NCBI RefSeq assembly: GCF_004014715.1
Contig: NZ_CP034834.1
Coordinates: 930,001 to 994,000, forward strand
Length of the DNA stretch: 64,000 nt
DNA from: Pseudoalteromonas sp. R3
GTDB lineage: Bacteria; Pseudomonadota; Gammaproteobacteria; Enterobacterales; Alteromonadaceae
Reading direction: 5' to 3'
In this document: piece after piece, positions 1-16,194 of the stretch
Position numbering within the stretch: position 1 is the stretch's first letter
Layout: each line of letters begins with the position of its first letter
Made by a program: the position numbers and the translations under genes
Notes under the pieces: generated by a model
What the model saw: the letters and a program-made list of their open reading frames with translations, nothing else
The model's database searches: none
What the model was told of the DNA's origin: nothing

Positions 1-3000
1 TTGCTGATAGCACAGCGCGACTTTATCGCCTGCGATGATGCCCCGCTGGTGCAACTGCTGTGCTATCTGCTCTGTTTGCTGCTGTAGTGAGTCATAATCC
101 AGGCTTTGCTTGTCGCAGCTTAAGGCGGTGCGCTCACCGTGAAGCTGCACCTGCTCACGAAAGTAACTATAAACATTCCTGGTCTTTGGCAGCGCCAATT
201 CAGTGTTATTGCGCTCGCACAGGATCTCGGTGCGCTTTTGCTCAGATACGCAGTTTAGTTTGCCTACGCGCTTGCTGCTGTCCTTCACCAGATCTTCGCA
301 CAGAGTGAGCCAGTTATCGATAAAGTCGTCGGCATAGACTGAGTCCATCGCTTTAAGTGCGTACTCAAAGCACAGCTCAACCCGGTCATTGCTGGCCAGT
401 ACATTCATAGTCAGCGGGAATTTTGCTTGCTGTGCATCCACGGCAAACGGTGCCATATCGAGTCCGGGCAACTGAATGTCAGGCTGAGCCTGCACCCAGG
501 AAAACAATACCTGCACCAGGTCGCGTTTAGCGCCGGTCGCTGCGCCTTCGCTGCTTTGCAGGATATGATGATAGGGCAGTTCGGCGTGCTCCAGTACACT
601 CAGACAGTGCTCTTTTACCTGCCCGGCCAGCGCTGTGAAGCTTTGCTGCGGGTCAACTTCGGCCAGCAGCGGCAAGGTATTAATGAAAAAACCAAGCGTA
701 TATTGTTGTGCTTCTTTGCGCTCCGACGCAGGCAGGCCAATGACAAACCGTGACTGGCGGCTGTAATGCCATAAAAGCACCTGAAAACTGGCCAGATACA
801 GCATGTTTTCAGACACCTGTAAGCGCACAGCCAGTTGTTTCATAGCCGTGCTCAGCGGGGTTGGAATTTCACGGCGCACTGTGCCAGCCTTATCGCCCGC
901 ATCTATCACTCCCGCGACGGGAAACGCCAGTGCCTGTGCTTCATTTAAGTAGTCGTGCCAGAAGGTTTGCTGTCTTGCACAGGCCGGACTTTGCAGCCAT
1001 GCGTGCTGCATTCTGGCATAGTCGCTGTAACGACCTGCCTGCGGCCAGTGGGTTGTTTGCAGATCAGATTGCTGCCACAGCTCGGTGAGTTCGCGTAAAA
1101 ATAAGGCGCCAGAGCTGGCATCTGCAACAATATGGTGAAACACCAGCGCCAGCACATGATCCTCGTTGCCCAACTCAATGAGCGCACAGCGTAATAGTGG
1201 TGGCTGAGACAGATCGAAGCAGGTCGTCAGTAATTGCGACTGATACACATCAGCAGCAGCTTTCAGTCTTTGGGTCTCATCATCGTACTCAGTTACGCAC
1301 AAATGCTCGACTTGCAGTTTTGGTGGAGTAACCAGATGGGTGGTTAGCTCACCTTCTTCTATGCGAAAAGCGGTATGCAAGATCTCATGACGAGCTGCAA
1401 CCTGGTTCAGACAGGCGGTGAGTTTCTCGCTGTCCAGTGTGCCCTGAATGCGTAATGCAATGGGAATATTATAGCGGGCGTGTGCGCCCTCGTGTTGCTC
1501 GACAAACCATAAGCGCTCGGCACTGAGTGACGGCCGGGCAAAGCGCTGAGCGTCAGTGGTGGGTGCGGACCAGCTGCTGGATTCCGGCTGGCCGGGTTGT
1601 GCCAGTAGCAGCGTGGTTTGCTGAGCTATGCTGGTGGCCTGATAAAAGTCTTTAATGCCGGCCACACTATTGAGTGCCTGACAAGCCTGACGATGCGCCT
1701 GGCTCAGTTGCAGCGAGTCAACTCCGAGTTCAAACAGATTGGTATCAAGTGCGACGGGGTGACCCAGCAGCGCCTGCCAGATTGCCTGTATGGTGTGCTC
1801 TTGCTCGCTTCCTGCTCTGTCGGCAATCTGTGGCTGAGACACCTCAGCCTGTACGGATTCGCTCAGGCGTTGCTTATCAATTTTGCCGCTGACATTGAGT
1901 GGTAATACTTCTCGCTCGCTCCAGCGGGTTGGCACCATGTAATAGGGGAGTCGCTTAGCCAGATAAGATTGCAGTGTTTGTGCGCTTATTTCACAATCGG
2001 GCTCGGCCACATAACAGGCATGCAGGTAAGTTTTCCCGGACTGTTGCAGCGCCAGAATACACGACTGCCTGACCTGAGGATGGAGCGTGAGATGCTGGGC
2101 GATTTCCTCGGGCTCAATGCGAAAACCGCGTACTTTAACCTGCTGATCAATACGACCGGCAATTTCCAGTTCACCGTTGGGCAGCAAGCGAGCTTTGTCA
2201 CCCGTTCTGTAGTAGCGCAGGGTGGGCTCATCCGGATGTTCAATAAAAGCGTTGGCTGTGGCTTCGGGCTGACCAATATACCCCAGTGCCAGGCCCGCTG
2301 CGCTGACACACAGCTCGCCCCAGCACATGTCGGGTACTTGTCTGCCCAAAGGCGTGAGGATCTGCACCTGCATCCCCGCGATGGGCTTACCAATATTATT
2401 GCTGTGTAACGCTTCGGGCTTTGCCAGCTGCGCCGAGGTGATGACTTTGGCCGACACGCATACGGTACATTCAGTCGGGCCGTAGGCATTCACAAATCTC
2501 AGATGCTGAGGCCACAGTTGGAGCAGTTTTTTCGGACAGGCTTCACCTGCACTGACCAAGGTTTTCAGTTGTGGAACCTGGCAGGGCTGTAACAGCTGGA
2601 TCAGGCTCGGCGGCAAAGTCACTGAAGTGATAGCCAGATCGTTGAGCAGTCCTAACAGCGTCTGATGAGAGAAGGTGTCGGCTTGTTTAGCCATGACCAG
2701 GGTCGCACCGGCGGCCAGCGTTACCACGATTTCCGAAATAGCGGCATCAAAGGACAAAGAAGCAAACTGTAACACCCTGTCGTCAGGGGAGACGTTGAAT
2801 AACGTTTGCTGGGCGCGGGCCAGCGGCATCAGTCCTGCATGGCTGACCAGTACGCCTTTGGGTTTACCTGAGGTGCCCGAAGTGAAGATCACATAGGCAG
2901 CAGCTGTGGCATCGAGTTCCTCTATTGATGTGGTCAGCGCCTGTTGCGGTGCGCTCAGTTGTGCGGGCAGCAAAGTGCGACAAGGTACATCTACACTGGT

Positions 3001-4644
3001 TTCCTGACTGAGTAGCAACAAGGTCAACCCAGGCTGATCCAGGCATGCCAGCAGTCGTTCTTTCGGCCAGGCGATGTCGCAATGTAAAGACACGGCCTCC
3101 AGGCGCCACAGGGCTAAAATCGTGACCAGGCTGTCGAGAGATTTATCGAGACAGACGGCAACCCGCATGCCCTTGCAGACACCTTGTTCGCTGAGCTGGG
3201 CGGCGCGCCGTTCCAGTGCCTGCATCAATTCAGTGTAGCTCAGTGCAGTGTGCTCATCTTCAACTGCGCATAACGTCCCTTGCTGCTGTGTCAGCTGGTG
3301 GAGGTGTTGCAAAATATGCGTGTGTGGCTGTTCGGGTAAAGAGACAAACCCCCTGTCAGATGTTAAAAGGTTCGCAATGGCTTGCGGCTGGGTTGGAGTC
3401 AGTGTTGTCAGGGCGCAGCTAAACAATTTGGCCAGATGGGCCAGCTCCTGCTGATCGAAATAATTCGCCCGGCCAATCAGTTTAGTGTGCAGTGCATCAT
3501 TCACTTCAAACAAAGTCAGTTCCAAATCAACCTGAGCGATGGCACTGTCTTGCGCGTCACTCAAACACAGCCCGTGACATTGCGCCTGGCCGTTTGCGAG
3601 GCTTAACGGGGTGGATTGTACGCCCGATAATAATCCCATCAGACCCGTGCGAAAGCCACGGATCTTGAGCTGTGGCAGGTAGTTACAGATCACATTATGT
3701 TTGTGCCCTTGCGGATCGGCCGCCGGTGAGCGCAATGCGGTCATGGTCTGTTGCTCAAGCTTTCCCAGCAACTCCTGAATACTGAGGCTGTCGATGGCGG
3801 TGATACTGACAGGTTGCAGGTCGACAAAATGGCCCAGATGATAGCGGTTTTTACGGCTGCGCCTGGCTACCGGAATACTGATAGTCAGATCTGTCTGACC
3901 GCTGTGGCGATATAAGGCCAGGAACCAGCATGCCAGTAATACGGAGAAGCGGCTTACCCCATATTCGCCGGCCAACTCAGCCAGTCGTGTGTACTCATCG
4001 TTGAGGGTGTCGAACTCACCTAATCCGCTGAACTTATTGTGTGTCTGTTGCAGTCCGGTATCGTTAAAGTCCAGGGCGTGATCAGGCTGGTACAGGGGCT
4101 CATCATCGGTGCTTTGTTCACTGACCGAGGTATAATCAAGCGGCTCTGAGGTCGCATCTTTGTGTTCCAACATGGATTCTAAAGACGCGAGGAAGTCATT
4201 CACCAATACCTGCAAAGACCATTGATCACAGATCACATGATGAAGCTTAAACAGCACCAGATATCCCGCTTCACAAGCCTTGATCCGACAGTCGTACAGT
4301 TTGCCCTCCAGGCTGATGGCGCTAGCTACTTGCGCCCGGCACCAGCCTCGCAGGTCTTCGCTTAACTCGGGATCGTAGGTGAATAGTTCACCAGGCTCAT
4401 GAGCGTCTGTGCAGGTAACCAGGTTGTCGCTGCCTGCTTGCCAGCGACAATTGAGAATCGGATGGCGCAATAACAGCTGGCGTCCGGCCTCCTGCAATTG
4501 TTGACTCGTCAGGCCCTTAACCAAAAAGCCCGTGTATACGTTATACACTGGGCTTAGCGGATGCAGCTGTTGATCTTGGAGTAAATGAACTTGTCTAGGT
4601 GAGAGCTCGATAACCAGGTTGGTTTGTTGATTACGCGTATTCAC
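1..4644 (-). CDS. Non-ribosomal peptide synthetase, N-terminal 1548 residues (C-A-T-C-A...), runs off the window
   Basis: Open from a GTG at 4644 to the window edge; an in-frame TAA sits just upstream and AGGA lies 8 bases before the GTG. Domain order: condensation domain (HHVICDQWS near residue 135), adenylation domain (A3 YVIFTSGTSGKPKG near 584, A5 NAYGPTE near 717, A10 NVSGK near 915), carrier domain (GVDSLQ, Ser977), a second condensation domain (HHIVADA near 1170), and the start of a second adenylation domain from about 1490. The N-terminal C domain with no preceding module suggests it accepts an acyl chain made by the upstream polyene enzymes. Aligned by eye to GrsA, the first A-domain code reads D-A-S-T-V-A-A-V-C-(K), which belongs to the Phe/Tyr group. 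There is no epimerase after module 1. It is last in the operon visible here; later modules, and any halogenase, would lie outside. Confidence 0.95.
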   Translation of the reverse strand, partial: MNTRNQQTNLVIELSPRQVHLLQDQQLHPLSPVYNVYTGFLVKGLTSQQLQEAGRQLLLRHPILNCRWQAGSDNLVTCTDAHEPGELFTYDPELSEDLRGWCRAQVASAISLEGKLYDCRIKACEAGYLVLFKLHHVICDQWSLQVLVNDFLASLESMLEHKDATSEPLDYTSVSEQSTDDEPLYQPDHALDFNDTGLQQTHNKFSGLGEFDTLNDEYTRLAELAGEYGVSRFSVLLACWFLALYRHSGQTDLTISIPVARRSRKNRYHLGHFVDLQPVSITAIDSLSIQELLGKLEQQTMTALRSPAADPQGHKHNVICNYLPQLKIRGFRTGLMGLLSGVQSTPLSLANGQAQCHGLCLSDAQDSAIAQVDLELTLFEVNDALHTKLIGRANYFDQQELAHLAKLFSCALTTLTPTQPQAIANLLTSDRGFVSLPEQPHTHILQHLHQLTQQQGTLCAVEDEHTALSYTELMQALERRAAQLSEQGVCKGMRVAVCLDKSLDSLVTILALWRLEAVSLHCDIAWPKERLLACLDQPGLTLLLLSQETSVDVPCRTLLPAQLSAPQQALTTSIEELDATAAAYVIFTSGTSGKPKGVLVSHAGLMPLARAQQTLFNVSPDDRVLQFASLSFDAAISEIVVTLAAGATLVMAKQADTFSHQTLLGLLNDLAITSVTLPPSLIQLLQPCQVPQLKTLVSAGEACPKKLLQLWPQHLRFVNAYGPTECTVCVSAKVITSAQLAKPEALHSNNIGKPIAGMQVQILTPLGRQVPDMCWGELCVSAAGLALGYIGQPEATANAFIEHPDEPTLRYYRTGDKARLLPNGELEIAGRIDQQVKVRGFRIEPEEIAQHLTLHPQVRQSCILALQQSGKTYLHACYVAEPDCEISAQTLQSYLAKRLPYYMVPTRWSEREVLPLNVSGKIDKQRLSESVQAEVSQPQIADRAGSEQEHTIQAIWQALLGHPVALDTNLFELGVDSLQLSQAHRQACQALNSVAGIKDFYQATSIAQQTTLLLAQPGQPESSSWSAPTTDAQRFARPSLSAERLWFVEQHEGAHARYNIPIALRIQGTLDSEKLTACLNQVAARHEILHTAFRIEEGELTTHLVTPPKLQVEHLCVTEYDDETQRLKAAADVYQSQLLTTCFDLSQPPLLRCALIELGNEDHVLALVFHHIVADASSGALFLRELTELWQQSDLQTTHWPQAGRYSDYARMQHAWLQSPACARQQTFWHDYLNEAQALAFPVAGVIDAGDKAGTVRREIPTPLSTAMKQLAVRLQVSENMLYLASFQVLLWHYSRQSRFVIGLPASERKEAQQYTLGFFINTLPLLAEVDPQQSFTALAGQVKEHCLSVLEHAELPYHHILQSSEGAATGAKRDLVQVLFSWVQAQPDIQLPGLDMAPFAVDAQQAKFPLTMNVLASNDRVELCFEYALKAMDSVYADDFIDNWLTLCEDLVKDSSKRVGKLNCVSEQKRTEILCERNNTELALPKTRNVYSYFREQVQLHGERTALSCDKQSLDYDSLQQQTEQIAQQLHQRGIIAGDKVALCYQQ

Positions 4645-4688
4645 TGGGACTTCCTGTTATTTTATTCGTTATTTTAAACACTGCAAAG

Positions 4689-4713
4689 GCGCGCCCGGGA
4701 CAACCCCGGGGCC
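4689..4713. other. GC-rich hairpin between SDR gene and NRPS gene
   Basis: In the 92-base gap before the NRPS start, GCCCGGG and CCCGGG face each other across a 5-base loop, with further GC pairing outside. No T-tract follows on the minus strand, so it is not a clear terminator. It could stabilise the mRNA end or reduce read-through into the NRPS. This is the only sizeable gap in the operon. Confidence 0.35.
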
Positions 4714-4736
4714 GGATAAAGCTTGGGTAACACTGC

Positions 4737-5510
4737 TCAGGCACGACAGCTGAAGCCGCCGTCTACATATAAGGTACTGCCTGTGCTCCAACGGTTTTGC
4801 TGTAATAAGTACAGCACAGCATCGCTGATATCCCCGGGTTGGCCAAAGCCGAGCGGGTGTTTGTTCTCGATTGCACTGATGGCCTCTGCGGCGACTTCGG
4901 CATAGCCGTTATTGAGCGGGGTTTTGATCATTCCGGCGGCGATACAATTGACCAGCACTTGATCTTTTGCCAGTTCCAGTGCGGCACTACGACATAGCGC
5001 AGCCATCGCAGCTTTACTTGCGGCGTAGCCAGACACGGCTGGCTCAGCCTGAGACTGGCTCACAGAAGACAGCAACACCACAGAGGTCGGCGCACCTGCT
5101 GCGCGTACTTTTTTACGAGTAAATGCTTTTAGCAACGCCAGGGCACCGCCGGTATTGATACGAAACATGCGCTCAAAGTCGGCGTAGCAGGTGGACCGCA
5201 ACGGCGTCATCTGATGCACGCCGGCGCATTGCACTGCACCCTGAAAAGGACCATGGGCTATGGCGTTGGCAATGATGTGCTCGGTCAGGCTATCTGGTTC
5301 GTTAAGATCGACCTGCGCGACCTGGTGTTCCCCGGGTAAGGTGCCGAGGATCTGTTCCAGTAGTGCCAGATTACGCCCCAATAACAGCAGGCTGTAGCCG
5401 TTGTTGCTCAACCGCTGACAAATATCCTGGCCCAGCTCTGAGCTGGCACCACAGACAACAACCCGGGGTGGGGTGACTGCCTGATTGTCGTTACCTTGCT
5501 TAAACTCCAT
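4737..5510 (-). CDS. Short-chain dehydrogenase/reductase (FabG-like ketoreductase)
   Basis: This 257-residue SDR has an NAD(P)-binding motif GASSELGQ near residue 21 and a catalytic Ser with Y-A-A-S-K (GYAASKAAM). Its C-terminal end, YVDGGF, is typical of 3-oxoacyl-ACP reductases. The ATG at 5510 overlaps the 3' end of the thioesterase gene by 11 bases, so the two are probably translationally coupled; a much longer upstream extension of the frame lies inside the thioesterase gene and is ignored. In this cluster it should reduce a beta-keto intermediate during polyene chain growth. The cluster also has a second canonical SDR and a degenerate one, so which of them does which step cannot be told from sequence. 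The family is certain, the substrate is inferred. Confidence 0.9.
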   Translation of the reverse strand: MEFKQGNDNQAVTPPRVVVCGASSELGQDICQRLSNNGYSLLLLGRNLALLEQILGTLPGEHQVAQVDLNEPDSLTEHIIANAIAHGPFQGAVQCAGVHQMTPLRSTCYADFERMFRINTGGALALLKAFTRKKVRAAGAPTSVVLLSSVSQSQAEPAVSGYAASKAAMAALCRSAALELAKDQVLVNCIAAGMIKTPLNNGYAEVAAEAISAIENKHPLGFGQPGDISDAVLYLLQQNRWSTGSTLYVDGGFSCRA

Positions 5511-6267
5511 GATTAACTCCTTGCAAAGTGTCTTGATTAAGGCGCTGGCCCGTTTGTGCAAAAACCGCGGAAATATCGTGGTTGATTTGCGTACATACCT
5601 CGGCGCTGTGTTCTTCAAGGTAAAAGTGCCGCCCCGCATATTGGTGGCTGCACAGGGGAAAGTGAGAAAAGTCCTGCCAGGGATGCAGCTCTGATGTGTT
5701 AACAATTTCATCGTCAGTGGCACTGAAGACACTGAGGGCACAAGTGAGCGGTCTGGGCTTGCACAGAGGTGCACATTCGGCGAGATAAAAGTCGTCGCGT
5801 ACCTGTGCCAGCAGACGTTGCCTGACTTCAGGGTGCGTGAGTCTCTTGGCTGGGAACTGTTGCAAACGCTGCAGCTGCTCGGCCAGTGGTTCATCCGCCA
5901 GTGTGTGGACCTGGGTTCTACTGGGCAGTGAGGGTGCCCGGCAAGCGGACACACCCAGCCACAGTGGCAAAGGCTGGCCCGACTTTTGAAGTGCCAGAGC
6001 CAGCTCAAAAGCGACTCTGGCTCCCAGACTGTGTCCGAAAAAAGCAAACGGAGTCTGGCATTGGCCTATCTCACTAAGCAACTGCGCTGTAAGTTCTGAC
6101 CAGTCACGACAGCCTGCCATTGCCAGTTTGTCGCCACGACCGGGCAAGTCAGGACAAATCACCTGCCAGTGCGTGGGCAGTAACTGCGACCAGGCACGAA
6201 AATAGCGCCCCGAACCACCGGCATGGTGAAAGCAAAACAAGGTGAACGGTTTCACAACATCGCTCAT
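5500..6267 (-). CDS. Type II thioesterase
   Basis: This 255-residue alpha/beta hydrolase matches type II thioesterases of NRPS/PKS clusters: an N-terminal FCFHHAGGSG oxyanion segment, the nucleophile in GHSLGA (Ser80), an aspartate in the SATDDEIV region, and a histidine in YAGRHFYL. Such enzymes remove stalled or wrong acyl groups from carrier-protein phosphopantetheine arms. The start overlaps the end of the preceding degenerate SDR by 4 bases (ATGA). Its place between the polyene enzymes and the NRPS fits proofreading for either. It is a standalone protein of the usual family length. Confidence 0.93.
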   Translation of the reverse strand: MSDVVKPFTLFCFHHAGGSGRYFRAWSQLLPTHWQVICPDLPGRGDKLAMAGCRDWSELTAQLLSEIGQCQTPFAFFGHSLGARVAFELALALQKSGQPLPLWLGVSACRAPSLPSRTQVHTLADEPLAEQLQRLQQFPAKRLTHPEVRQRLLAQVRDDFYLAECAPLCKPRPLTCALSVFSATDDEIVNTSELHPWQDFSHFPLCSHQYAGRHFYLEEHSAEVCTQINHDISAVFAQTGQRLNQDTLQGVNHGV

Positions 6268-6980
6268 AGCTTAATATCCATAGCCGGACGCAGCGCCAGA
6301 GTCTGGCCATTTTGCCAGCCCGGATCACTGGCCTGACGCCAGATCTCGGCCAGCACTTGCTCGCGCAGCATGACCGCAGGTTTAGCACCGTATACTGAAT
6401 TGCGCATGGCCCGCTTTAGTGCCTTGCGTTCGGTGTCATCACTGGCGCACAGCGGCAATGCCAGGCTATTTACCCGCACAGGGTAGCCACACCATTCTTT
6501 GGCCAGGCTTTTTTGTAATGCATCTATGCCATAGCAGGTGATGCTGTCGTGGCCGTGCAGGCAACCTTGTTCCTGAACATAAGCATAGGCGTCCGACAGT
6601 AACGGGTAACACAGACTGCCTTCAAATTCGCGCAATACACCACAACAATATTTGGCGGTGAGAAACGCCGCTTCGATGTGCGCCTGGCTGACCGTTGGAT
6701 CGGCCGCTGCAGCGCTATCTGCAACGCCGCCGATGGCATGCAGCACAACCAGACCGGTGTCAGTGTCTTTGCTTTGTGCGCTGAGTTGTTGAAACAGCAC
6801 CGCGTCTGGTTCATCGGCTTGTGCCAGCGCGTCTATTGGCAGGGTTGCTAAAGCCGGAAAGTGCGCGACTATCTCAGCTGTTGGCGCGAGCAATAGTGGT
6901 GACTCGCCCTGAGCTTGCAAATAGTCGAGCAGTGCCCGGTCCCAGTCGCTGTGAGCAAACGCGTAGATGACTCTGCTCAT
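6264..6980 (-). CDS. Degenerate SDR-like protein of the polyene cluster
   Basis: This 238-residue protein aligns with the SDR fold only in part. The C-terminal half keeps an SDR-like stretch (YGIDALQKSLAKEW then VRVNSLALP, like the SDR helix and the R-V-N-x-I-x-P strand). The N-terminus lacks the glycine-rich GxxxGxG dinucleotide loop, and no clear Ser-Tyr-Lys triad is seen. The ATG at 6980 overlaps the end of the FabG-like gene by 4 bases, and the next gene also overlaps by 4. It may be a non-catalytic partner of the reductase or an SDR with an altered role. A longer frame upstream lies inside the neighbour and is not used. Function unknown. Confidence 0.8.
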   Translation of the reverse strand: MSRVIYAFAHSDWDRALLDYLQAQGESPLLLAPTAEIVAHFPALATLPIDALAQADEPDAVLFQQLSAQSKDTDTGLVVLHAIGGVADSAAAADPTVSQAHIEAAFLTAKYCCGVLREFEGSLCYPLLSDAYAYVQEQGCLHGHDSITCYGIDALQKSLAKEWCGYPVRVNSLALPLCASDDTERKALKRAMRNSVYGAKPAVMLREQVLAEIWRQASDPGWQNGQTLALRPAMDIKL

Positions 6981-7705
6981 AGTAAAAACCCTCCGTCCAG
7001 TTTGATCACCTGACCGTTGCAGTATCCTGCTCGTGGGGTGGCAAGAAACAGCACCCAATTTGCCACTTCAGACACTTGCCCGACCCGGCCAAGCGATGTA
7101 TGTGCAAGCACGGGTCTGGCTTTGTTTTGTGGCATGACATCAGCCATTTCTGTGGCAATCAGTGCAGGCGCCAGTGCATTGCAATAAATGCCTGACTCAC
7201 CATAACGTCGCGCCAGCATGCGGGTCATGCCAATCACGGCCCCCTTGGAGGCCGCATAGTTGGCCTGGCCTTCTCGTCCTGATACACCGCTGAGCGATAC
7301 CAGATTGACGATCCGTCCCTGACCTGCGTGCTGCATATGAGGTAGCACGGCCTGGCACAGGGTAAAAGTGCCGATAAAATTCACCCGCATCACGGCGTTA
7401 AAGTCGTCCCGGCTCATGGTCTGTAACAGGTTGTCCCGGGTTATCCCGGCATTATTGACCAGCACATCAATACGCTGATGCTGGGCAATAATCCTGGCTA
7501 CTGTTTCCTCGACGAATTCAGGGTCGTCCACTGAGCCGCTGAACTGAGCGTAGTTTGGCTGCGCTAATTCCTCAGCCACATCTTTACTACGACACAGCCC
7601 GAAGACCTTGGCACCCTGTGCCAGAAAAGCCTGCGCCAGTCCCAGCCCTATTCCGCGGGACGTGCCGGTGATAAGGACCACCTTATCTTGTAATTGCAGA
7701 TCCAT
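6977..7705 (-). CDS. 3-oxoacyl-ACP reductase, FabG-like
   Basis: This 242-residue canonical SDR has TGTSRGIG near residue 14, NNAG in the middle, and a Ser / Y-A-A-S-K catalytic set (NYAASKGA). The end IKLDGGF is typical of FabG. It should reduce the beta-keto group after each condensation by the KS-CLF, giving the 3-hydroxyacyl-ACP that the FabZ-like enzyme dehydrates to a trans double bond. The ATG at 7705 comes one base after the FabZ-like stop (TGATATG). A frame extending to 7783 lies inside the FabZ-like gene and is not the start. Of the three SDR-like proteins in the operon this one is closest to classical FabG. Confidence 0.93.
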   Translation of the reverse strand: MDLQLQDKVVLITGTSRGIGLGLAQAFLAQGAKVFGLCRSKDVAEELAQPNYAQFSGSVDDPEFVEETVARIIAQHQRIDVLVNNAGITRDNLLQTMSRDDFNAVMRVNFIGTFTLCQAVLPHMQHAGQGRIVNLVSLSGVSGREGQANYAASKGAVIGMTRMLARRYGESGIYCNALAPALIATEMADVMPQNKARPVLAHTSLGRVGQVSEVANWVLFLATPRAGYCNGQVIKLDGGFLL

Positions 7706-7706
7706 A

Positions 7707-8156
7707 TCAGGCCTCCGCTGACGACACAGGCTGACTGAAATGGATAGATACCTTGGCCCGGGCGACTTCCTCCTCGCCGACATAAGCGATGGCCTGAAAG
7801 AGCGCCATGTCCTCCAGACGAGTTAATAACTGCGATTTAATCACCAGGATATCGCCAGGCACGACGGGGCGCAGAAACTTGGCTTTGTCGATACTCGACA
7901 ACACACCTGCGCTGTATTCGCTAAAACACAGGCCACTGATCTGTGCCATTGTCTCGATGATCAGCACCCCGGGAAAGATTGGCTGGTCGGGAAAGTGGCC
8001 CTGCAAGCTTGGTTCGTTGTGGCTAATAAACTTGTGCCCTTCGATGTATTCGCCCGCCTCAAGACGCACTATGCGGTCGGCAAATTTAAACGGTGCCCTG
8101 TGGGGCAAGCGTTCACTCAAAGTGTTTAGGTTGCCTGTCAGCTCAGTATTGCTCAT
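7707..8156 (-). CDS. 3-hydroxyacyl-ACP dehydratase, FabZ-like
   Basis: This 149-residue single hot-dog protein has LPHRAPF near residue 17, the catalytic histidine in GHFP (His54) and the catalytic glutamate in LIIETMAQ (Glu68), all hallmarks of FabZ. It should dehydrate 3-hydroxyacyl-ACP to 2-enoyl-ACP. No enoyl reductase is present in the cluster, so double bonds would be kept, as needed for a polyene. Its start overlaps the permease end by 4 bases. Length and motifs are complete. Confidence 0.94.
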   Translation of the reverse strand: MSNTELTGNLNTLSERLPHRAPFKFADRIVRLEAGEYIEGHKFISHNEPSLQGHFPDQPIFPGVLIIETMAQISGLCFSEYSAGVLSSIDKAKFLRPVVPGDILVIKSQLLTRLEDMALFQAIAYVGEEEVARAKVSIHFSQPVSSAEA

Positions 8157-9258
8157 CCGTTGTCTCCCCAGTCAAAGCTCAGATAAATAGCGATAAACAA
8201 CACCACTGAGGTGCCTGCCAGTATCGTTAGTTGTGGAGCAACTTGCTGTAATCCGGCGGCTTCGTTGGCTACCAGACGGAAGGCATCCAGAAAAGCGGTG
8301 GACGGTAGCCACTGCACAAAGGCTTCAAAAACGTCCGGGAAATAACTGGTTTGGAAATAAATGCCGGACAAGAACATCAGCGGAAAATACAGCATATTGG
8401 CGATACCGGTAGAAACTTCGACCCGGGTGCTGCGAGCGCCGATCAAGACGCCTAACAGGCACAGACAGGCAGATCCACAAAACAGCACGACGGCGATATT
8501 GGCCCAGTTGCCGGGCGGCTTAAAGTCGAACATAAAGTAGAAAATAGCCAGCAACAATAACAGCTGAAAGCTCAGTAAAAACAGCCGAGCCAGCACCACG
8601 CCCATAATGTAATCCGACTTTTTAAAGGGTGATAACTTGAGGCGTTTAAAAAAGCCCTGCTGGCGATCTGAGACCAGGCCATTGGAGATGGAGAACAGCG
8701 CCAGACCAAGGATCTGTAGCACGATTATCCGGGGATCAACCAGTCGACATAGCGATAGCCGACGATGCTGAGCTGCTGGCTACTCAGGGGGCTGCCCGAT
8801 AAGCCGCTTTTCAGCTGCATCAGGTAGTTGATTGCCTTATCGTTAAATTGATCAGAGTCCCCGGTGGTATAGATTTGCCCCTGATTTAAAATTAACAGGG
8901 AGTCATACTGGGCCAGTAAATTTTGCAGCGGACCGGAGGGGTGGATCTCTTGTTGCGCATCGGCCAAAGAGGCCAGAAGCTGTTCGGTTTGCTCCTGACT
9001 AAGCGTGATCAGGTTGACCTGCAGGTCGTCTCGCATCAACTCACGCCAGCGCTTATCTGGTGCCTCATTGTAGGTCACTGCAACATTGATTTCCTGCAAC
9101 TGGGCGCTGCCGGAAAAGGCTTTGACCATTAACAGTGCAATCAACACCGGCAATGCAAAGGTCCATAGCATGGCCGCCGGCTCACGAAAAAAGGGTCTGA
9201 CATTGAGGAGCATTAATTGCCAGAATGGGTAAAGCTTAGGGCTGATTGTGTGGCTCAT
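8153..9258 (-). pseudogene. ABC-2 type permease, split by a one-base frameshift
   Basis: Two abutting frames together make one ABC-2 permease. The first (9258-8725, 177 residues) holds the first membrane segment and the extracytoplasmic domain and stops after VDWLIPG. The second (8722-8153, GTG start possible, 189 residues) continues with LQILGLALF and five membrane segments. Reading the second frame backwards gives I-I-V-L-Q directly after the stop, which restores the family's usual DFLIPG-I-L core. So one base is missing near 8729, in the run CCCCGG. It could be a real mutation, a consensus error, -1 ribosomal slippage on CCCC, or a genuine two-gene split (the stop and the GTG are 2 bases apart). 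It partners with the ATPase at 9255 and probably exports the lipopeptide. Confidence 0.85.
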
Positions 9259-10019
9259 GCCATGCCTCCCGAAAGGTCAAATCCGGTTAATTTTAAAAAC
9301 ACGTCGTTCAGGGTCGCCTTGCGCGGCTCTTTGATGACCGGCTCGGCAAAAGTGCGATGGATAATGTCCTGGGGTGAACCCGACTCGATAATGGTGCCCT
9401 TGTCGATGATCGCCAGGGTATCGCATAAAAACTCCACTTCATCCATATAATGAGAAGTCAGTATCAGGGTGACACCATCGGCTTTAAGCTTGTTGAGGAT
9501 CTCCCAGAACTCCTGGCGGCTGGTGGGATCCAGTCCGGTGGTGGGCTCATCAAGAAAGATGATCTCGGGTTTGCCAACCACAGCCATGGCCAAAAAGACC
9601 CGCTGACGTTGTCCGCCACTGAGCTCGCACAGCCAGTTGTTGCGCTGTGGTGTAAGGTTAAACTGCTCCAGCACCTCGTCGATGGCCTGATAGTCCGGGT
9701 AAAAGCTGGCGAACAACCTGACGGCTTCCACTACCTTCAGGCGCGCATACATCTCATTTTCCTGCAGCACACCGGCAATGCGACGGCGGAGTTTTTTCTC
9801 GTTGCCCTGCCATGGCATGCCAAACAGCTCTATGCTACCGGCGGAGGGCTTTTTCAGGCCCTGTAACATTTCCAGTGTGGTGGACTTGCCCGCCCCGTTA
9901 GGCCCGATAAAGCCAAAACACTGGCCGCGTTCAACCTCAAAGGATACGCCCGCAACAGCCGTTTTTTGTGTTCTGTCATAGACCTTTTTCAGATCTTTGA
10001 CGGCAATAACCTGTTCCAT
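9255..10019 (-). CDS. ABC transporter ATP-binding protein
   Basis: This 254-residue nucleotide-binding subunit has Walker A GPNGAGKS, signature LSGGQRQR, Walker B IIFLDEP and an H-loop TSHYMDE, in the order of a DrrA/CcmA-type exporter ATPase. The start lies 2 bases after the ketosynthase stop, with AAGGAG inside the end of that gene. Its last codons overlap the permease start by 4 bases (ATGA). In a cluster of this kind it most likely energises export of the finished lipopeptide or gives self-protection. The substrate is inferred from context only. Confidence 0.94.
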   Translation of the reverse strand: MEQVIAVKDLKKVYDRTQKTAVAGVSFEVERGQCFGFIGPNGAGKSTTLEMLQGLKKPSAGSIELFGMPWQGNEKKLRRRIAGVLQENEMYARLKVVEAVRLFASFYPDYQAIDEVLEQFNLTPQRNNWLCELSGGQRQRVFLAMAVVGKPEIIFLDEPTTGLDPTSRQEFWEILNKLKADGVTLILTSHYMDEVEFLCDTLAIIDKGTIIESGSPQDIIHRTFAEPVIKEPRKATLNDVFLKLTGFDLSGGMA

Positions 10020-10021
10020 CC

Positions 10022-12247
10022 TTAACTCCTTGGTGCCGATGCGACACTATGTAACACACAGCCATGCATTATCTGCTCGGCATTAACAGACACCACCAGC
10101 ACACGGCACAATGGTGCTTCGCTTTTCTGACTGGACATTTCATCAAGCCCCTGAATAAGCGCTTTTAAACCTTGACTTGCAATGCACAAATGATTGTCGA
10201 CCAACGGGGTGATACTTTGTGCTTGCGGGCATAATTCACTGAGCAGTTGCCGGACATGCTGTAACTCATGTTGGCGAGTTGCTGCAACGACCACATGGTC
10301 TACTTCTTCTAAGCTGACCATTTCGGGCAATCGCTTCCCTTGTGCTGCGCAAAGGGTAAAACACGCCACCACTTCGGCCAGTGGATGGGTATTTGCCGCG
10401 AGCCCGGATTCATTGACCATGACCAGTGCCGCGGCATTCGCTTGTTGGGTATTCGCTGCATCCACCGCCTGGGCTTGCCAGATCTGTTTACTGCTGTTGC
10501 TGCTGTCTTCGCCGGCCACCACCAGTGCCCGTTCAACTCTGTCGGCACGCAGGTCGTAAAAGGCCTGCCATAAGGCTTGCAAACCCTCGTTACCACAGTC
10601 GCTGAAGTTTGCTGCTGTACCACGGATCGTGTGGGCAATTGCCAGACTCCCCAAAGAGGCATTCAGTACGGTATCGGTAAACAGAGTGCTCTTGATATTG
10701 TTAGCCCCCAGCTTTGCCAGATCATCGTAGTTGCGCTCTTGTACTTCACTGCAACCCAATGCCGTGGCGAAATAGCCACCACAGCGAGTCGGGTCGTTTG
10801 TGTCACGCTCTAACCCACTGGCCGCCAGCGCAAACTCGGTAGCGCCAATGGCATATTGGGACAAGCAGCTCATTCGGCGTCGGTACAGGGCAGGGAAATG
10901 CGCCTTGAGACTAAAGCCGGCCTCGTCAAGCTCGGTACTCGTGGCTGTTTTGTCAGCCGTTGTGCGGATCTGGCTATCGATTCGGGTATGTGCCGCAATA
11001 AAAACGCGCTGGTGGGGTGCTGGTTTCTTTGGCGCGAGTGCAACCTCTCCACTGGCCAGCACTAAGCTGGTGTTATGACCTCCAAACGCCGAGTTGGTAC
11101 TGGCAAACCAGTCAACTTGTTGTTCTGCCAGGCGCTCTCGGATCAGAGCATATCCCTGACAATCTTCACGCACGTCGTTGACACCCAGAGTCGCTGGCAG
11201 ACAACCATGACGTTGTGCAGCCAGTACAGAGATTAGCTCCAGTGCACCAGCAGCGCCCAGAGCGTGGCCGAAATAGGATTTGGAACTCGACACCTGCGCT
11301 GTCATTGGCTGCTCACCATTGAGGGCTCTGCGGATCCCCTGTAACTCGGCGCCGTCATTGGCCGGTGTCCCGGTACCGTGGCTATTCACATAGTCTATCT
11401 GCGTGCCTGATATGCCCGCATCTGTCAGCGCCATACTGAGTGACCGCGATACGCCCCGGCCTTCTGGTTCTGGTGCTGTGGCATGATAGGCATCCAGACT
11501 GGAGCCGCTGCCGCGTAGCTGCGCAAGTATGTTTGCTGCGCGCTGCTGTGCAGCTTCTGCCGTTTCCATCACCACAAAACCTGCGCCTTCTCCCAGGCTC
11601 AATCCGGTATCTACACCATAGGGCGAACAGACGCCAGCAGAGACTGAGCGCAGCGAATGAAAACCGGCATACACCAGTCTGGCCAGCGAGTCGCTGCCTC
11701 CGGCGAGCACTATGTCGGCCTTGTTATCGCGTAATAATTCGCGGCCAAAGCTGATAGCGCTGCTACTGGCGGTACACGCCGAGGTAAAACAAAACAGTGG
11801 ACCGTTAAGGTTGAAATGACTGTGTACATTGGCGGCCTGACGATAAGCCGGGTATTGTTTGATTTTTTCGTTGTCTTGCTGCGCCATCCCTTCAAGCAAA
11901 ATGTCGGTACCGGAATTGGCATTCCCAAAACACAGCGCAACACGTTTATCGGCCAGCTTTTCAAGGCTTAACCCAGCATCTGCCAACGCTTGTTCCACTG
12001 CCGAAATGGCAAACAGCGTAGCAAAGTCGAACTGGTCAGCGAGTGCTTTACGGTTGCTTCTAAACTCGTTGAGTAAGGCGGCATGATGGCTTTCTAGTTG
12101 CATCTGAGCAAAATCTGCTTGCGCTTTGACGCCTGAATGTCCAGCAGCCATGCTGGCAAACAAGGTTTGGTTGTTGCCAATGGCAGATTCCAGGCCGTAG
12201 CCGGTGATCACCGCCATGACGTTGTCATTATGGTTATTGCTTTGCAT
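10022..12247 (-). CDS. Ketosynthase fused to a chain-length-factor-like domain
   Basis: This 741-residue protein has two thiolase-fold halves. The first (about 10-400) is an intact KS: active Cys158 in TSACTAS, His290 in NSHGTGTP and His328 in SYFGHALGAAG. The second (about 415-735) is a degenerate KS. Its expected Cys region reads FSDCGNEGLQAL, where the aligned cysteine position appears to be Gly with a Cys one place earlier, and the two histidine motifs are absent. This is the KS plus CLF arrangement of aryl-polyene-type iterative type II PKS, here as a single polypeptide. It would extend an aromatic starter with malonyl units. The start overlaps the ligase gene by 14 bases. No malonyl transferase is encoded nearby; presumably the fatty acid synthase enzyme is shared. 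Confidence 0.9.
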   Translation of the reverse strand: MQSNNHNDNVMAVITGYGLESAIGNNQTLFASMAAGHSGVKAQADFAQMQLESHHAALLNEFRSNRKALADQFDFATLFAISAVEQALADAGLSLEKLADKRVALCFGNANSGTDILLEGMAQQDNEKIKQYPAYRQAANVHSHFNLNGPLFCFTSACTASSSAISFGRELLRDNKADIVLAGGSDSLARLVYAGFHSLRSVSAGVCSPYGVDTGLSLGEGAGFVVMETAEAAQQRAANILAQLRGSGSSLDAYHATAPEPEGRGVSRSLSMALTDAGISGTQIDYVNSHGTGTPANDGAELQGIRRALNGEQPMTAQVSSSKSYFGHALGAAGALELISVLAAQRHGCLPATLGVNDVREDCQGYALIRERLAEQQVDWFASTNSAFGGHNTSLVLASGEVALAPKKPAPHQRVFIAAHTRIDSQIRTTADKTATSTELDEAGFSLKAHFPALYRRRMSCLSQYAIGATEFALAASGLERDTNDPTRCGGYFATALGCSEVQERNYDDLAKLGANNIKSTLFTDTVLNASLGSLAIAHTIRGTAANFSDCGNEGLQALWQAFYDLRADRVERALVVAGEDSSNSSKQIWQAQAVDAANTQQANAAALVMVNESGLAANTHPLAEVVACFTLCAAQGKRLPEMVSLEEVDHVVVAATRQHELQHVRQLLSELCPQAQSITPLVDNHLCIASQGLKALIQGLDEMSSQKSEAPLCRVLVVSVNAEQIMHGCVLHSVASAPRS

Positions 12248-13763
12248 GAGTTACTTCCAATAGTGAGCTAAGGGTCGTTTTTCCCATTTGATTGAGCGGA
12301 AAAGACGGTAGCAGGGCGATATTGGGTACAGGGTAGTCGCGAAAGGCGTCCCTGAGTGCCTGCTCGCACGGGGGCTGCTGGCTTTGGGTTTCGACAAAAG
12401 CCAGTAACTGTCCACCGCGTTTGTCATTGTCGTCTTCGACAAAAAACAGTTTTAATGGCGCCGTGCCAAAAAACACCTGCAAACGTTGTTTTGCCTCTTC
12501 CAGTGACAAACGTTTTCCTTTGTATTTAAAGACTTTGTCTTTGCGTCCCAAGTGACGTATGCGACCATCGCCGAGCAAGGCTATCCTATCCATCATGACG
12601 AACTCTGAGTGGTCGCTCAGCAGATAGGGTGAGCGCAATATGGCCGTTCCCTCGTCATCCAGTCGCAGTTGGACTTCGGAAAATAAAGTGAAGGTAGCGA
12701 TACTATCCTGGGCGATTGCCCGAAACCCGATCCCACCCGTTTCGGTACTACCAAGGACTTCAATACCACTCAATTGAGGGATTGTTTTCTGTAGCGTGGC
12801 AAATTCAGCTTCGCGCCTTGCACCGAAAGGTGCGCCAGAGCTGACCACCGCACTGCCCGAAGTGAGGTCTTCATGGGCCAGTAAATCCCAGACACTGGGG
12901 ACCAGGACATTCAACATGCTGAGCTCGCCACAGGGCGAGGCATCGATATATTGGGCGTCCTGATAGAAAACCGGCTTGTTTAATCGTATCGGTATCAACC
13001 AGGTCCAGATAAACCCATACATGTGCTGGGGACTGATCAGGGCATTGATGAGCGCATAGCCAGAAAGATCCAGGCTCTGACAAATCCCTTCAGCTTCGGA
13101 CCACATGCTGTGCAGTGATTTGAAAAACAAACTCGGCTTCCCGGTACTGCCTGAGGTGAGAAAACCCACTCTGGCGTTACCTAGCCGGTGCATCAGACTG
13201 GCATCTAATCCTGTGCAGTGTGGGGTGGCCGGTTCATCGCTATCGGTCCCGGCACACAATTGCTGCCAGCTCAGTCCGTCGTTACCACCAAGCACCGGTG
13301 TGCGGCCACTTAGTAGCAAACTGAAGACCGTTAGCATCTGCGCAATGGCATTTTGCTGTGCTACCTGCACTTCCTCTGTTTTACTCTGACGAGCTAACTC
13401 TGGGCTGAAACTGAGCACCCGATTGAGCAGGTCAACCAGCCCGGCTTCGTCATAATGGCAGCCATCGCTTGCCATAAAACGGTGTAAGTGCCGCTGCGTC
13501 GTCTGTGTTTGTCCCAGTTGTGAGATGATCAGAGTAGCCAGATCGGCAACGCAATTACGTAACGTATGGCGCTGCGGATAAAGCTTGATGCAGTAGTGGC
13601 GCTCGCAATCCGCGATAAGCTGCAACATATCAATAGAGTCTAGAAACAAAGGTGCACCAAGCAGATCGGCCTGATTATCCAGCTCTGCCAGCTCGCTTAC
13701 TTCTATTTCCAATGAGTGCTGCATCAGCACGCGGATCTGCGCGACAACTTGCTGATGTCTCAT
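12234..13763 (-). CDS. Acyl carrier domain fused to an AMP-forming acyl ligase
   Basis: This 509-residue protein starts with a carrier-like domain (residues 1-75, FLDSIDMLQL, putative phosphopantetheine Ser43). An adenylating enzyme follows: A3-like TSGSTGKPS near 208, STETGG near 345, and the hinge motif GRKDKVFKYKGKRLS near 415. It should activate the aromatic acid made by the ammonia-lyase (probably 4-coumarate) and load it on its own carrier or on the free ACP, giving the polyene starter. It lies 2 bases after the hot-dog gene and overlaps the KS gene by 14 bases. Ligases of this type in aryl-polyene clusters are usually separate from the carrier; the fusion is visible here, but whether Ser43 is modified is not known. 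Confidence 0.87.
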   Translation of the reverse strand: MRHQQVVAQIRVLMQHSLEIEVSELAELDNQADLLGAPLFLDSIDMLQLIADCERHYCIKLYPQRHTLRNCVADLATLIISQLGQTQTTQRHLHRFMASDGCHYDEAGLVDLLNRVLSFSPELARQSKTEEVQVAQQNAIAQMLTVFSLLLSGRTPVLGGNDGLSWQQLCAGTDSDEPATPHCTGLDASLMHRLGNARVGFLTSGSTGKPSLFFKSLHSMWSEAEGICQSLDLSGYALINALISPQHMYGFIWTWLIPIRLNKPVFYQDAQYIDASPCGELSMLNVLVPSVWDLLAHEDLTSGSAVVSSGAPFGARREAEFATLQKTIPQLSGIEVLGSTETGGIGFRAIAQDSIATFTLFSEVQLRLDDEGTAILRSPYLLSDHSEFVMMDRIALLGDGRIRHLGRKDKVFKYKGKRLSLEEAKQRLQVFFGTAPLKLFFVEDDNDKRGGQLLAFVETQSQQPPCEQALRDAFRDYPVPNIALLPSFPLNQMGKTTLSSLLEVTHAKQ

Positions 13764-13765
13764 AC

Positions 13766-14257
13766 CTAGGGCTCCTGTGCAGTTTCTGTGTTATCTAAGC
13801 TGCGTAAACGCTCGGCAAGCCGTTTTTTGCTTGCCGCTTTGGGCGGTAAAACCATGGCCTTACCATCACTGACCAATTCACCTCGCTGATTGTGCCAGCT
13901 GAGTGCTAATTCAACCTGGCGGGTGTCTGCGAATTTGGCACTGACTTCGGCTTTGGCAAAAATGGTGTCGCCGATATAAATAGGCGCGTGAAATCCTATC
14001 TCCATCGACAGCACCATAGAGCCAACCCCGGGCAGCTTCATGCCAATAACCGGTGCTATCATGGCGGGCGCCAATCCGGCATGTGCTATGCGTCCTTGCA
14101 AGCCGAAGGAGTGTGCAAACACCTCATCAACATGCACCGGATTGAAATCTCCCGTGATGCCCGCGAAGCTATACACATCCGTTTCGGCAATGGTCTTGCT
14201 GTGCCCGGCCTGCTCACCTATGGTCAGCTCTCTGAAGGTTTTACCTAGCGTGTACAC
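13766..14257 (-). CDS. MaoC-like hot-dog dehydratase/hydratase
   Basis: This 163-residue MaoC-family protein has the diagnostic segment GDFNPVHVDEVFA near residue 45, with Asp and His as in (R)-specific enoyl hydratases, followed by GRIAHAGL. I chose GTG 14257 because GAGG sits 8 bases upstream and it begins just after the ACP stop; an ATG at 14308 would overlap the ACP by 41 bases. It may act with the FabZ-like protein in dehydration, or set or move a double bond. The pairing of two hot-dog dehydratases in one polyene cluster is notable but not unique. The exact reaction is unknown. Confidence 0.85.
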   Translation of the reverse strand: MYTLGKTFRELTIGEQAGHSKTIAETDVYSFAGITGDFNPVHVDEVFAHSFGLQGRIAHAGLAPAMIAPVIGMKLPGVGSMVLSMEIGFHAPIYIGDTIFAKAEVSAKFADTRQVELALSWHNQRGELVSDGKAMVLPPKAASKKRLAERLRSLDNTETAQEP

Positions 14258-14267
14258 AATGACGACC

Positions 14268-14540
14268 TCAGGCTCTGGCTTCTTCGCTGACAAATTGTGC
14301 CAGGGCATTGATTGATGCCATTTTTTCCTTGATCACTTCATTGCCGTAGTTACTAAACTTCATGCCATACTTTTTCTCGATTGAGACCACAAGCTCAAGC
14401 ACTTCAATACTGTCCAGTTCCAGGCCGTCGCTTACCAGTCCCTGTTCGTCGTCCAGTTCGTCGATGGAATCCACCACCTCCAGGTTATCTACGATGATGT
14501 CCTGTTTGATAAAAGTTCTGATCTGGTCGAAATCAGCCAT
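14268..14540 (-). CDS. Acyl carrier protein
   Basis: This 90-residue acidic protein has the phosphopantetheine attachment motif LELDSIEVLEL (Ser44), as in fatty-acid/aryl-polyene ACPs. The ATG at 14540 is preceded by AAGGAG and gives the normal ACP length; a frame running to 14615 would overlap the ammonia-lyase gene. It lies 19 bases after the ammonia-lyase and before the MaoC-like gene. It is expected to carry the growing aryl-polyene chain for the KS-CLF, reductase and dehydratases and present it to the NRPS. Confidence 0.93.
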   Translation of the reverse strand: MADFDQIRTFIKQDIIVDNLEVVDSIDELDDEQGLVSDGLELDSIEVLELVVSIEKKYGMKFSNYGNEVIKEKMASINALAQFVSEEARA

Positions 14541-14559
14541 GTGAAAACTCCTTATTTTA

Positions 14560-16194
14560 TTAGTTATGTAATTGATATTCCGGGAACAGCTTCTTAACCA
14601 TATTGTCGATGTCACGGTCCATCGGGCGGTCCTGGATCACTGGGGTGAAGTAGTCGCGTAGTTGCTCAAAGAAACGCATGGATTCAGTATTGAGCTTGTC
14701 AGCACTACCGTCTTTATCGAGTACGTAAAAGGCCTGGCGGATTGCCATGGCGTGAATGGCTATCACAGGTTTCACCAAAGAGAGAATGTGTTTTAAGTCG
14801 CGGGCCGCAATAGTACCCATGCTGACGATATCCTGGTTAAGTGCTTCGGTGGTGCGTGAGAATACGCTCATCGGTGACGCATTCTTCAGCGCTTCAGCGG
14901 TCAGTGCCGAGGCGGTGATTTGTACAGCCTTAAAGCCATGGTTGATCCAGGATTCATCCCCTAAGTCGTCAATGGCGACCAGGTTGTTTGGGATCCCGCC
15001 GTTTAGTCTGTCATCAACTAAAATGCCCAACTCGCGCTCCAAAAGGGCGGCGAGGTTAGCCAGCTGTGGTTTTAGAGCGTCGCAGACAGCAGCAACATGC
15101 CCACCATAAAAGTGTCCGGCGTTGAGGATCAGATCTTTTTGGTTGTCGAACAACGGGTTGTCATTTACAGAGTTAATCTCAGTGGTGATCACCCGTTTGG
15201 CCCAGTCAAGCGTATCCAGCAGTGGCCCTATGACCTGAGGAGAGCAACGAATGGAGTAGCTGTCCTGTAATCTGAATTGCTCTTTTTTTCCTGCCCCAAA
15301 TTCATCGTCACTGCGCAGGCGGCGCCCCAGACGTTGCTCCGGGTTTGATAAGCGTTCGTAGATCATCGCAGCGCATTTGATCTGGCCCGGATGTGGCTTG
15401 AGGTTATGGACCTGAGGGTGAAAAGGCGAAGCACGACCGTCAATCAGCTCAACAAACAGCGCAACTTGTTTACAGCTTAGTTCGATAGCGCGTTCTATTT
15501 CCAAAAATGACATGACGGCAATACCACACATCACCGATGTACCATTCATGATGGCTAACCCTTCTTTGGGCTTAAGGCGATATGGGGTGATATCTAACTC
15601 AGCAAATACCTCACTGGTAGGGCGGATCTCTCCACGATAATAGACGTGACGCTTACCGGCCAGTGCAGCACCTATGTATGACAATGGCGTTAAATCGCCA
15701 CTTGCACCAACCGACCCCATAGCCGGGATTGCTGGGAAAATTCGGTGATTTAACAAACATTCCATTTGTTTCAGCAGCTCCCAACTTACGCCAGAAAAGC
15801 CTTTGGCATTACAGTTGAGGCGGATCAGTAAGGTCGCTGCACAGATTTGTTCAGGCAGGTAATCCCCGACACCACATCCATGGTAGGCGATTAAGTTTTC
15901 TTGTAGACTGGCGGCAAGTTCGGGCGATATACGGTTGCTGGCAGAGTTGCCAAATCCAGTAGTAACACCATATATATCTTCACGATTTTCTATTTTATCA
16001 TCAAGATATTCGCGATTTTCTCTAATGATCTTTTCTAATGCGGTATTCAAAGATATATCCACATTAGGATTAGTTACAAAAGAACCTACGTCATCGATAA
16101 GTAATTCATAATCCCCTCCAATTTCAAGAGTTAGATGGTCTGAATTTCTGCTCGTTGATTTTGATACCAAGTCTTTGTCAAATATGTTTTCCAT
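14560..16194 (-). CDS. MIO-type aromatic amino acid ammonia-lyase, probably tyrosine ammonia-lyase
   Basis: This 544-residue member of the histidine/phenylalanine/tyrosine ammonia-lyase family has the A-S-G triad (164-166, GSVGASGDLTPL) that cyclises to the MIO cofactor, catalytic Tyr75 in YGVTTGFG, and QDSYSIRCSPQV downstream. The substrate-selectivity pair aligns as Tyr104-His105 (NLIAYHGCG), neither the HL of classical TAL nor the SH of HAL. As first gene of an aryl-polyene operon it most likely turns L-tyrosine into 4-coumarate for the starter unit; an aminomutase activity giving a beta-amino acid cannot be excluded. The first about 75 codons are AT-richer than the rest. It has no adjacent hut genes, which argues against histidine catabolism. 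Confidence 0.93.
   Translation of the reverse strand: MENIFDKDLVSKSTSRNSDHLTLEIGGDYELLIDDVGSFVTNPNVDISLNTALEKIIRENREYLDDKIENREDIYGVTTGFGNSASNRISPELAASLQENLIAYHGCGVGDYLPEQICAATLLIRLNCNAKGFSGVSWELLKQMECLLNHRIFPAIPAMGSVGASGDLTPLSYIGAALAGKRHVYYRGEIRPTSEVFAELDITPYRLKPKEGLAIMNGTSVMCGIAVMSFLEIERAIELSCKQVALFVELIDGRASPFHPQVHNLKPHPGQIKCAAMIYERLSNPEQRLGRRLRSDDEFGAGKKEQFRLQDSYSIRCSPQVIGPLLDTLDWAKRVITTEINSVNDNPLFDNQKDLILNAGHFYGGHVAAVCDALKPQLANLAALLERELGILVDDRLNGGIPNNLVAIDDLGDESWINHGFKAVQITASALTAEALKNASPMSVFSRTTEALNQDIVSMGTIAARDLKHILSLVKPVIAIHAMAIRQAFYVLDKDGSADKLNTESMRFFEQLRDYFTPVIQDRPMDRDIDNMVKKLFPEYQLHN

Follow-up and report, generated by a model that had tools for sequence, protein, structure and literature searches.

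The question raised by this locus is which lipopeptide is encoded by an operon that couples an aryl-polyene type II polyketide synthase with a nonribosomal peptide synthetase (NRPS), and how that lipopeptide would be released. The operon lies at the left end of the window, i.e. the whole stretch of 64,000 nucleotides analyzed here, which corresponds to positions 930001-994000 of contig C1 (NZ_CP034834.1, 1.33 Mb) in the 5.82 Mb, two-contig genome of Pseudoalteromonas sp. R3. A preliminary description had assigned it to the alterochromide type, in which an aryl-polyene chain is joined to a peptide. That logic was borne out, the core genes standing in the altA-altJ order that is also found in genomes with Thr-Val-Asn-Asn-Leu codes, but the locus is not an alterochromide cluster proper: module number, adenylation codes, terminal thioesterase (TE) and halogenase all differ, and the product should therefore be a different lipopeptide. 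The cluster is real, complete and under selection; it is a sister of the alterochromide cluster, from which it differs in peptide line and in the logic of release. We consider it highly probable that it is an alterochromide-type aryl-polyene/NRPS cluster with a peptide line of its own, and it probably makes a yellow pigment-tailed peptide related to the alterochromides.

A four-module NRPS without an in-line thioesterase

A single minus-strand operon fills positions 1-16194 of the window, from the lyase gene (at 16194) down to the NRPS gene, and extends 10,671 bases further left, to C1:919330. The genes follow the order ammonia-lyase, acyl carrier protein (ACP), MaoC, ACP-ligase, ketosynthase-chain length factor (KS-CLF), ATP-binding cassette (ABC) exporter, FabZ, ketoreductase, short-chain dehydrogenase/reductase (SDR)-like protein, thioesterase, second SDR (SDR2) and NRPS (Table 1). 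All enzymes named in the preliminary description were recovered on the minus strand by Pfam and NCBIfam, the ligase being the weakest supported; the Pfam matches comprised lyase, carrier, MaoC, ketoacyl synthase, ABC ATPase, the C-terminal half of an ABC-2 permease, FabA/Z, SDRs, thioesterase and NRPS domains. The close packing that it reported was also seen, since the genes overlap or lie 2-19 bases apart (gaps of -77 to +19 bases with the chosen starts; a ketoreductase start at 7705 would bring the -77 to about +1), except for 92 bases that precede the NRPS gene. In this gap (window 4645-4736) a G+C-rich stretch looks by eye like an inverted repeat and is followed by only three Ts.

Extension to the left, as the preliminary description had advised, allowed the NRPS modules to be read to the end, and the halogenase that might have been met there was not found: there was no PF04820 match in or beside the operon, and the nearest on C1 lies about 680 kb off. 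The NRPS, which as described earlier belongs to the same operon and is its last gene, comprises 5104 aa and four modules by motif reading, arranged as C-A-T, C-A-T, C-A-T-E and C-A-T-E (C, condensation; A, adenylation; T, thiolation; E, epimerization). Both E domains retain HHxxxD, E(S/G)HGR and N(F/Y)LG. The last 350 aa gave no TE match in Pfam, only a condensation-family (E) domain, and the same stretch holds a TE in three of three relatives (P. luteoviolacea HI1, P. peptidolytica and Moritella). The layout without a TE recurred in 4/4 genomes of the P. rubra group, to which we assign the window genome because its closest named KS-CLF is that of Pseudoalteromonas rubra (95% identity). The ratio of nonsynonymous to synonymous substitution rates (dN/dS; own Nei-Gojobori script) was 0.104, 0.105 and 0.111 for the whole NRPS and 0.100, 0.105 and 0.086 for its T4-E4 end against S2676, XMcav2-N and G446, respectively. 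Judged across these genomes, the TE-less end of the NRPS is not an assembly truncation.

NRPSs were read to the end in nine genomes, and their A-domain codes were compared. The four codes of the window, taken from one alignment, are DASTVAAVCK, DAFFLGGFYK, DVWSIAMVHK and DANHKGLVDK, and we take the first to be a Tyr (Tyr/Phe-like) code. P. luteoviolacea HI1 carries DLYNMSLIWK, DFWNIGMVHK, DLTKMGEVGK and DGFFLGVVFK, presumably Cys-like, Thr, Asn and Ile-like, and the Moritella NRPS has a Thr code first. In P. peptidolytica and P. aurantia the codes are DFWNIGMVHK, DAFWIG(G/A)TFK, DLTKMGEVGK, DLTKMGEVGK and DAFFNGAVYK, of which we assume the first four to stand for Thr, Val, Asn and Asn. These fit the published alterochromide peptide, TVNN(L/I) (PMC5577590), and therefore served as a positive control for code extraction. 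The third code of the window agrees with the Thr code at seven letters, and the domain itself is nearest to Thr domains of the family (338-344 bits, next 291); A2 gave a weak lead in Moritella (303 bits vs 269 for the next), and A1 and A4 had no clear partner domain.

Relatedness was compared for the first C domain and the four A domains. The first C domain scored 170-195 bits against the first C domains of the alterochromide (alt), P. luteoviolacea and Moritella NRPSs, the next best reaching 51, and HHxxCDQW stands in the first C domains of 8/8 NRPSs examined for it. By these scores, it is the clearest conserved domain across the family among those compared, and such a conserved starter C domain suggests that one aryl-polyene engine is paired with different peptide lines. 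When the last third of the protein was used as query (1208 candidates scored), the best 120 of 1030 matches included one near relative at 97% identity, and the other 119 were generic NRPSs at 35% or less.

The polyene engine and its distribution

At least 495 stretches with a KS-CLF relative were found in GTDB species genomes; 80 loci were fetched, and the 12 best, which are the gammaproteobacterial ones, were examined. Nine core genes (lyase, ACP, ligase, KS-CLF, ABC ATPase, permease, FabZ, ketoreductase and AltI-like protein) stand in the same order in 12/12 loci, and the altA-altJ order given in Table 2 of PMC7333567 matches the core. An open-literature search gave no description of the P. 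rubra-group cluster in the text portions accessible.

The KS-CLF fusion proposed in the preliminary description is real. Residues 403-741 aligned with the KS half at an hhalign probability of 99.8 (E 7e-30; one comparison), compared with at most 0.8 for 20 column-shuffled controls and 0.2 for an unrelated profile. The KS Cys/His/His are replaced by G552/A655/L687 in the C-terminal half; in an alignment of the query with 41 hand-chosen homologs of 120 listed, C158, H290 and H328 were kept in 42/42 rows, and Cys stood opposite C158 in the C half in 0/42 (G in 31, H in 11). A predicted model (mean predicted local distance difference test score 90.4, predicted template modelling score 0.94) was compared whole with solved structures, and the matches listed were KS entries that span residues 1-405. 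On this profile and residue evidence, KS and CLF are naturally fused in the AltD-type enzyme, which corrects a published statement: one paper states that the alterochromide cluster lacks a KS-CLF.

The protein is 39-41% identical to its counterparts in the P. flavipulchra, S2755, P. peptidolytica, HM-SA03 and P. aurantia loci. In a tree of 19 rows, the 13 gammaproteobacterial rows formed one starred clade; the P. rubra, P. luteoviolacea and alt groups were supported, the order among them and Moritella was unresolved, and long branches were flagged. The six non-gammaproteobacterial outgroup loci gave no lyase match at 1e-5. At 1e-60, a KS-CLF was detected in 20/108 genomes of the same genus (four at 94-100% identity, six at 47-50% and ten at 40-43%) and in 4/395 genomes drawn from the family, all four of the same genus and including the window genome, which has one such match (10 of 14 candidates scored in the same-genus scan).

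Among the starter genes, the lyase is 70-72% identical to its alt, P. luteoviolacea and Moritella counterparts. Its nearest solved chains are 2o78 and 2o6y ('putative histidine ammonia-lyase'), and tyrosine is proposed as its substrate by analogy with AltA, whose role in the alt system is supported by a knock-out and by feeding of coumaric acid (PMC5577590). Identity to relatives outside the P. rubra group is 51-61% for the ACP, 33-38% for the ligase, 64-66% for the ABC ATPase, 63-65% for the C-terminal half of the permease and 25-28% for the AltI-like protein. For the ligase, Pfam gave nothing at 1e-3; in NCBIfam it matched the 4-coumarate-CoA ligase model at 1e-21, below the cut-off, and carrier-protein models at its N-terminus. 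MaoC and SDR2 each occur in the same 7/12 named loci (two of the P. rubra group, four of the P. luteoviolacea group and Moritella) and gave no match in the five alt-type loci at E 1e-5, with MaoC searched within 22 kb.

The earlier claim that no enoyl reductase is present is likely but not proved. In NCBIfam, the ketoreductase was nearest to 3-oxoacyl-ACP reductase (1.3e-68) and SDR2 to general SDRs, the latter below the cut-off in the rows shown and the former likewise below it, and both proteins carry a YxxxK motif; on the other side stand their best Pfam matches, considered below.

Release of the product and competing explanations

Genes, gene order, domains, residues and conservation of the cluster are read directly from the DNA; we infer the substrate, the length of the chain, the identity of the peptide, the route of its release, and the colour and activity of the product. 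In the proposed biosynthesis, the lyase would deaminate tyrosine to coumaric acid, which the ligase would load onto the ACP. The KS-CLF fusion, together with the ketoreductase and the FabZ and MaoC dehydratases, would then extend the chain, most likely with no enoyl reduction, to a 4-hydroxyphenyl-polyenoyl-ACP; for comparison, tails of 15 or 17 carbons are given for bromoalterochromides (PMC7551054). The dedicated starter C domain (HHxxCDQW) would transfer the acyl chain to the first of four modules, and the NRPS would add four residues, the first Tyr/Phe-like and the last two epimerized to D. The stand-alone AltJ-like TE most likely releases the acyl-tetrapeptide, which the ABC transporter would export.

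Without a TE in the NRPS, the product must be released in trans, most likely by the stand-alone enzyme. This was found in 7/12 named loci (two of the P. rubra group and five alt-type), with no match at E 1e-5 in the P. luteoviolacea group or Moritella loci. An in-line TE together with a stand-alone TE is the pattern of alt clusters, an in-line TE only that of P. luteoviolacea and Moritella, and a stand-alone TE only that of the P. rubra group, as would be expected if the stand-alone enzyme releases the product here.

Several points weigh against this reading. Release by the stand-alone TE is argued from absence, and alt clusters retain the same enzyme beside an in-line TE, so that its usual role may be editing. 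At least two further stand-alone TE-family frames of comparable size are also present in the genome, as are many additional NRPSs (63 C-domain matches), and therefore another enzyme or module could finish the chain. Three of the four A-domain codes have no firm residue assignment. In Pfam, the ketoreductase and SDR2 both match PF13561 best, a model described as enoyl-ACP reductase, and full retention of the double bonds is therefore not proved. The permease is split into two frames in this strain, and P. rubra is listed as a bromoalterochromide source (PMC4962019, PMC7551054). Such a listing, together with the identical core gene order, would favour an alterochromide cluster proper, making TVNN-Leu/Ile, possibly brominated; with four modules instead of five, differing codes, no TE and no halogenase in the operon, this explanation is barely credible and was rejected.

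A transfer of the D-configured tetrapeptide to an NRPS subunit encoded elsewhere, which would add residues and end in a TE, is unlikely but deserves more weight. NRPS subunits with a terminal E domain usually hand the chain on, many NRPS genes are present, and a frame of about 1318 aa with C and TE matches lies at C1:1223045-1226908, although we take its size to be that of an EntF-like siderophore enzyme. The operon, however, holds no further NRPS gene and is followed by a convergent gene whose product reads as a lipoprotein. This adjoining gene (477 aa) was itself tried as a release factor and rejected, as it belongs to no Pfam family. Release in trans by a penicillin-binding-protein (PBP)-type TE encoded elsewhere is distinctly less probable. 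SurE, a TE of the PBP type, acts in trans on peptides with E domains in the last modules of the synthetase (PMC11012974) and 16 beta-lactamase-family matches were found in the genome, but 0/16 map to the operon or its surroundings: on C1, the closest is a fragment below the cut-off about 232 kb away, and the closest above the cut-off is about 641 kb away. Equally improbable is an operon that is silent or decaying in this strain. The permease frame breaks at window 8722-8727 and is split in none of the 14 relatives' loci (13 genomes), all of which have one open frame (12 named loci, L115 and the partial L010 from the same genome as L017, with two more partial loci skipped); against decay, the frames of the other genes are open over the expected length and the NRPS dN/dS is about 0.1. 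Other NRPS genes of this genome also seem to be split (C2:4167501-4168816, C1:858206-859500 and L004 1003-2829/2802-4526), which may reflect base-level assembly errors, and the permease break fits such errors. Rubrenoic acids, presumably aromatic acids of P. rubra, were also considered as shunt products. This idea was dropped; PMC10054270, in the part available, gives only bronchodilator activity.

Beyond the preferred reading of an alterochromide-type cluster with its own peptide line, we tentatively propose, with chances somewhat short of even, that marine gammaproteobacteria have combined one aryl-polyene engine and starter C domain with at least four different peptide lines, that the stand-alone AltJ-type TE of the P. 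rubra group releases a D-ended acyl-tetrapeptide, and that all of these systems, including that of alterochromide, use a natural KS-CLF fusion. From the cluster, a new coloured lipopeptide is predicted in marine bacteria that can be cultured, and TE-less release becomes testable. A natural series with a constant acyl engine and a varying peptide line may also help to show where NRPS lines are swappable, perhaps directly behind the starter C domain.

Gene inventory, neighbouring features and known clusters

Table 1. Genes of the aryl-polyene/NRPS operon in the window
Feature	Position	Strand	Evidence and remarks
Aromatic amino acid (tyrosine) ammonia-lyase, AltA-like, 544 aa	14560..16194	-	PF00221 2e-147; predicted coumaric acid starter supply
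Acyl carrier protein, AltB-like	14268..14540	-	PF00550 (longer frame); LDSIEV carrier motif
MaoC-like dehydratase/hydratase	13766..14308	-	PF01575 1.5e-16
N-terminal carrier domain + putative acyl/coumaroyl-ACP ligase, AltC-like, 509 aa	12234..13763	-	NCBIfam
KS-CLF fusion, AltD-like, 741 aa	10022..12247	-	KS residues ~1-402, CLF ~403-741
ABC transporter ATPase, AltE-like (DrrA type)	9255..10019	-	PF00005; TIGR01188 drrA 1.4e-66, below cut-off
ABC-2 permease, N-terminal half, AltF-like	8725..9258	-	No Pfam match alone; frame breaks at 3' end
ABC-2 permease, C-terminal half, AltF-like	8153..8722	-	Other frame; PF01061 2.6e-20
FabZ-type dehydratase, AltG-like	7707..8156	-	PF07977 2.3e-20; NCBIfam FabZ PRK00006.1 3e-37, above cut-off
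FabG-type ketoreductase, AltH-like	6977..7783 (start maybe 7705)	-	PF13561 1.5e-55
Degenerate SDR-like protein, AltI-like	6264..6980	-	No Pfam match; SDR-like by sequence reading
Stand-alone (type II) thioesterase, AltJ-like	5500..6267	-	PF00975 5.8e-39; GHSLG motif; candidate release enzyme
Second SDR (SDR2)	4737..5510	-	YAASK motif; Pfam best PF13561
NRPS	1..4644	-	First 1548 of 5104 aa (starter C, A1, T1, C2, start of A2); ends C1:919330

The G+C content of the cluster is 52.6-54.1%, compared with 45.8-46.7% in the flanks. It also exceeds that of the flanks in 7/8 relatives' loci measured, Moritella being the exception. The upstream flank matches in XMcav2-N and S2676, and the downstream flank matches over 3.6 kb in XMcav2-N and, in S2676, over only about 60 bases beside the NRPS and in scattered pieces. 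On these grounds, a recent gain is not claimed.

About 19 kb further left, the plus strand carries a separate second NRPS region (C1:876001-900501; L004, L003), one protein of which begins with a TubC-type docking domain. Elsewhere in the window, a SIR2-HerA anti-phage defence pair was found on the minus strand in a low-GC stretch (HerA-like ATPase at 38142-39983 and SIR2 at 39986-41227; PADLOC 1.4e-263 and 2.4e-184, respectively), adjoined by an AbiEi/AbiEii type IV toxin-antitoxin pair on the plus strand (41714-42316 and 42323-43399), which gives the stretch at 38-43 kb (GC about 0.40-0.42) the look of a small defence island.

With regard to known systems, the locus resembles the alt cluster (altA-altN, P. 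piscicida JCM 20779 and relatives) in its core order from lyase to thioesterase and in the HHxxCDQW starter C domain. It differs in that MaoC and SDR2 are added and one four-module NRPS stands in place of AltK/L/M, without the in-line TE of AltM and without the altN halogenase, its four modules carrying codes other than those of the five modules for Thr-Val-Asn-Asn-Leu/Ile; a 417-aa flavin halogenase directly follows the NRPS in P. peptidolytica, and a halogenase follows it in P. aurantia too. The P. luteoviolacea-type clusters (HI1, MMG020, NCIMB 1944 and B95) and that of Moritella sp. JT01 share the core, the places of MaoC and SDR2 and the starter C domain with the present one. HI1, NCIMB 1944 and Moritella are unlike it in having four modules on two proteins and an in-line TE (by Pfam for HI1 and Moritella, by motif for NCIMB 1944), with no stand-alone TE found. 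The same engine with other peptide codes was observed in the P. luteoviolacea-group (L020, L021, L022, L026) and Moritella sp. JT01 (L019) clusters.

Gram-negative aryl polyene (APE) clusters, which to our knowledge lack an NRPS, likewise use an aryl starter and a type II KS-CLF. They employ KS and CLF as separate proteins, together with a second KS (PMC8358021), whereas here one fused KS-CLF is encoded and a Pfam scan of the operon genes gave no other KS. Similarly, the KS-CLF of ishigamide biosynthesis (Iga11-Iga12) consists of two proteins, in contrast to the one fused protein of this cluster.

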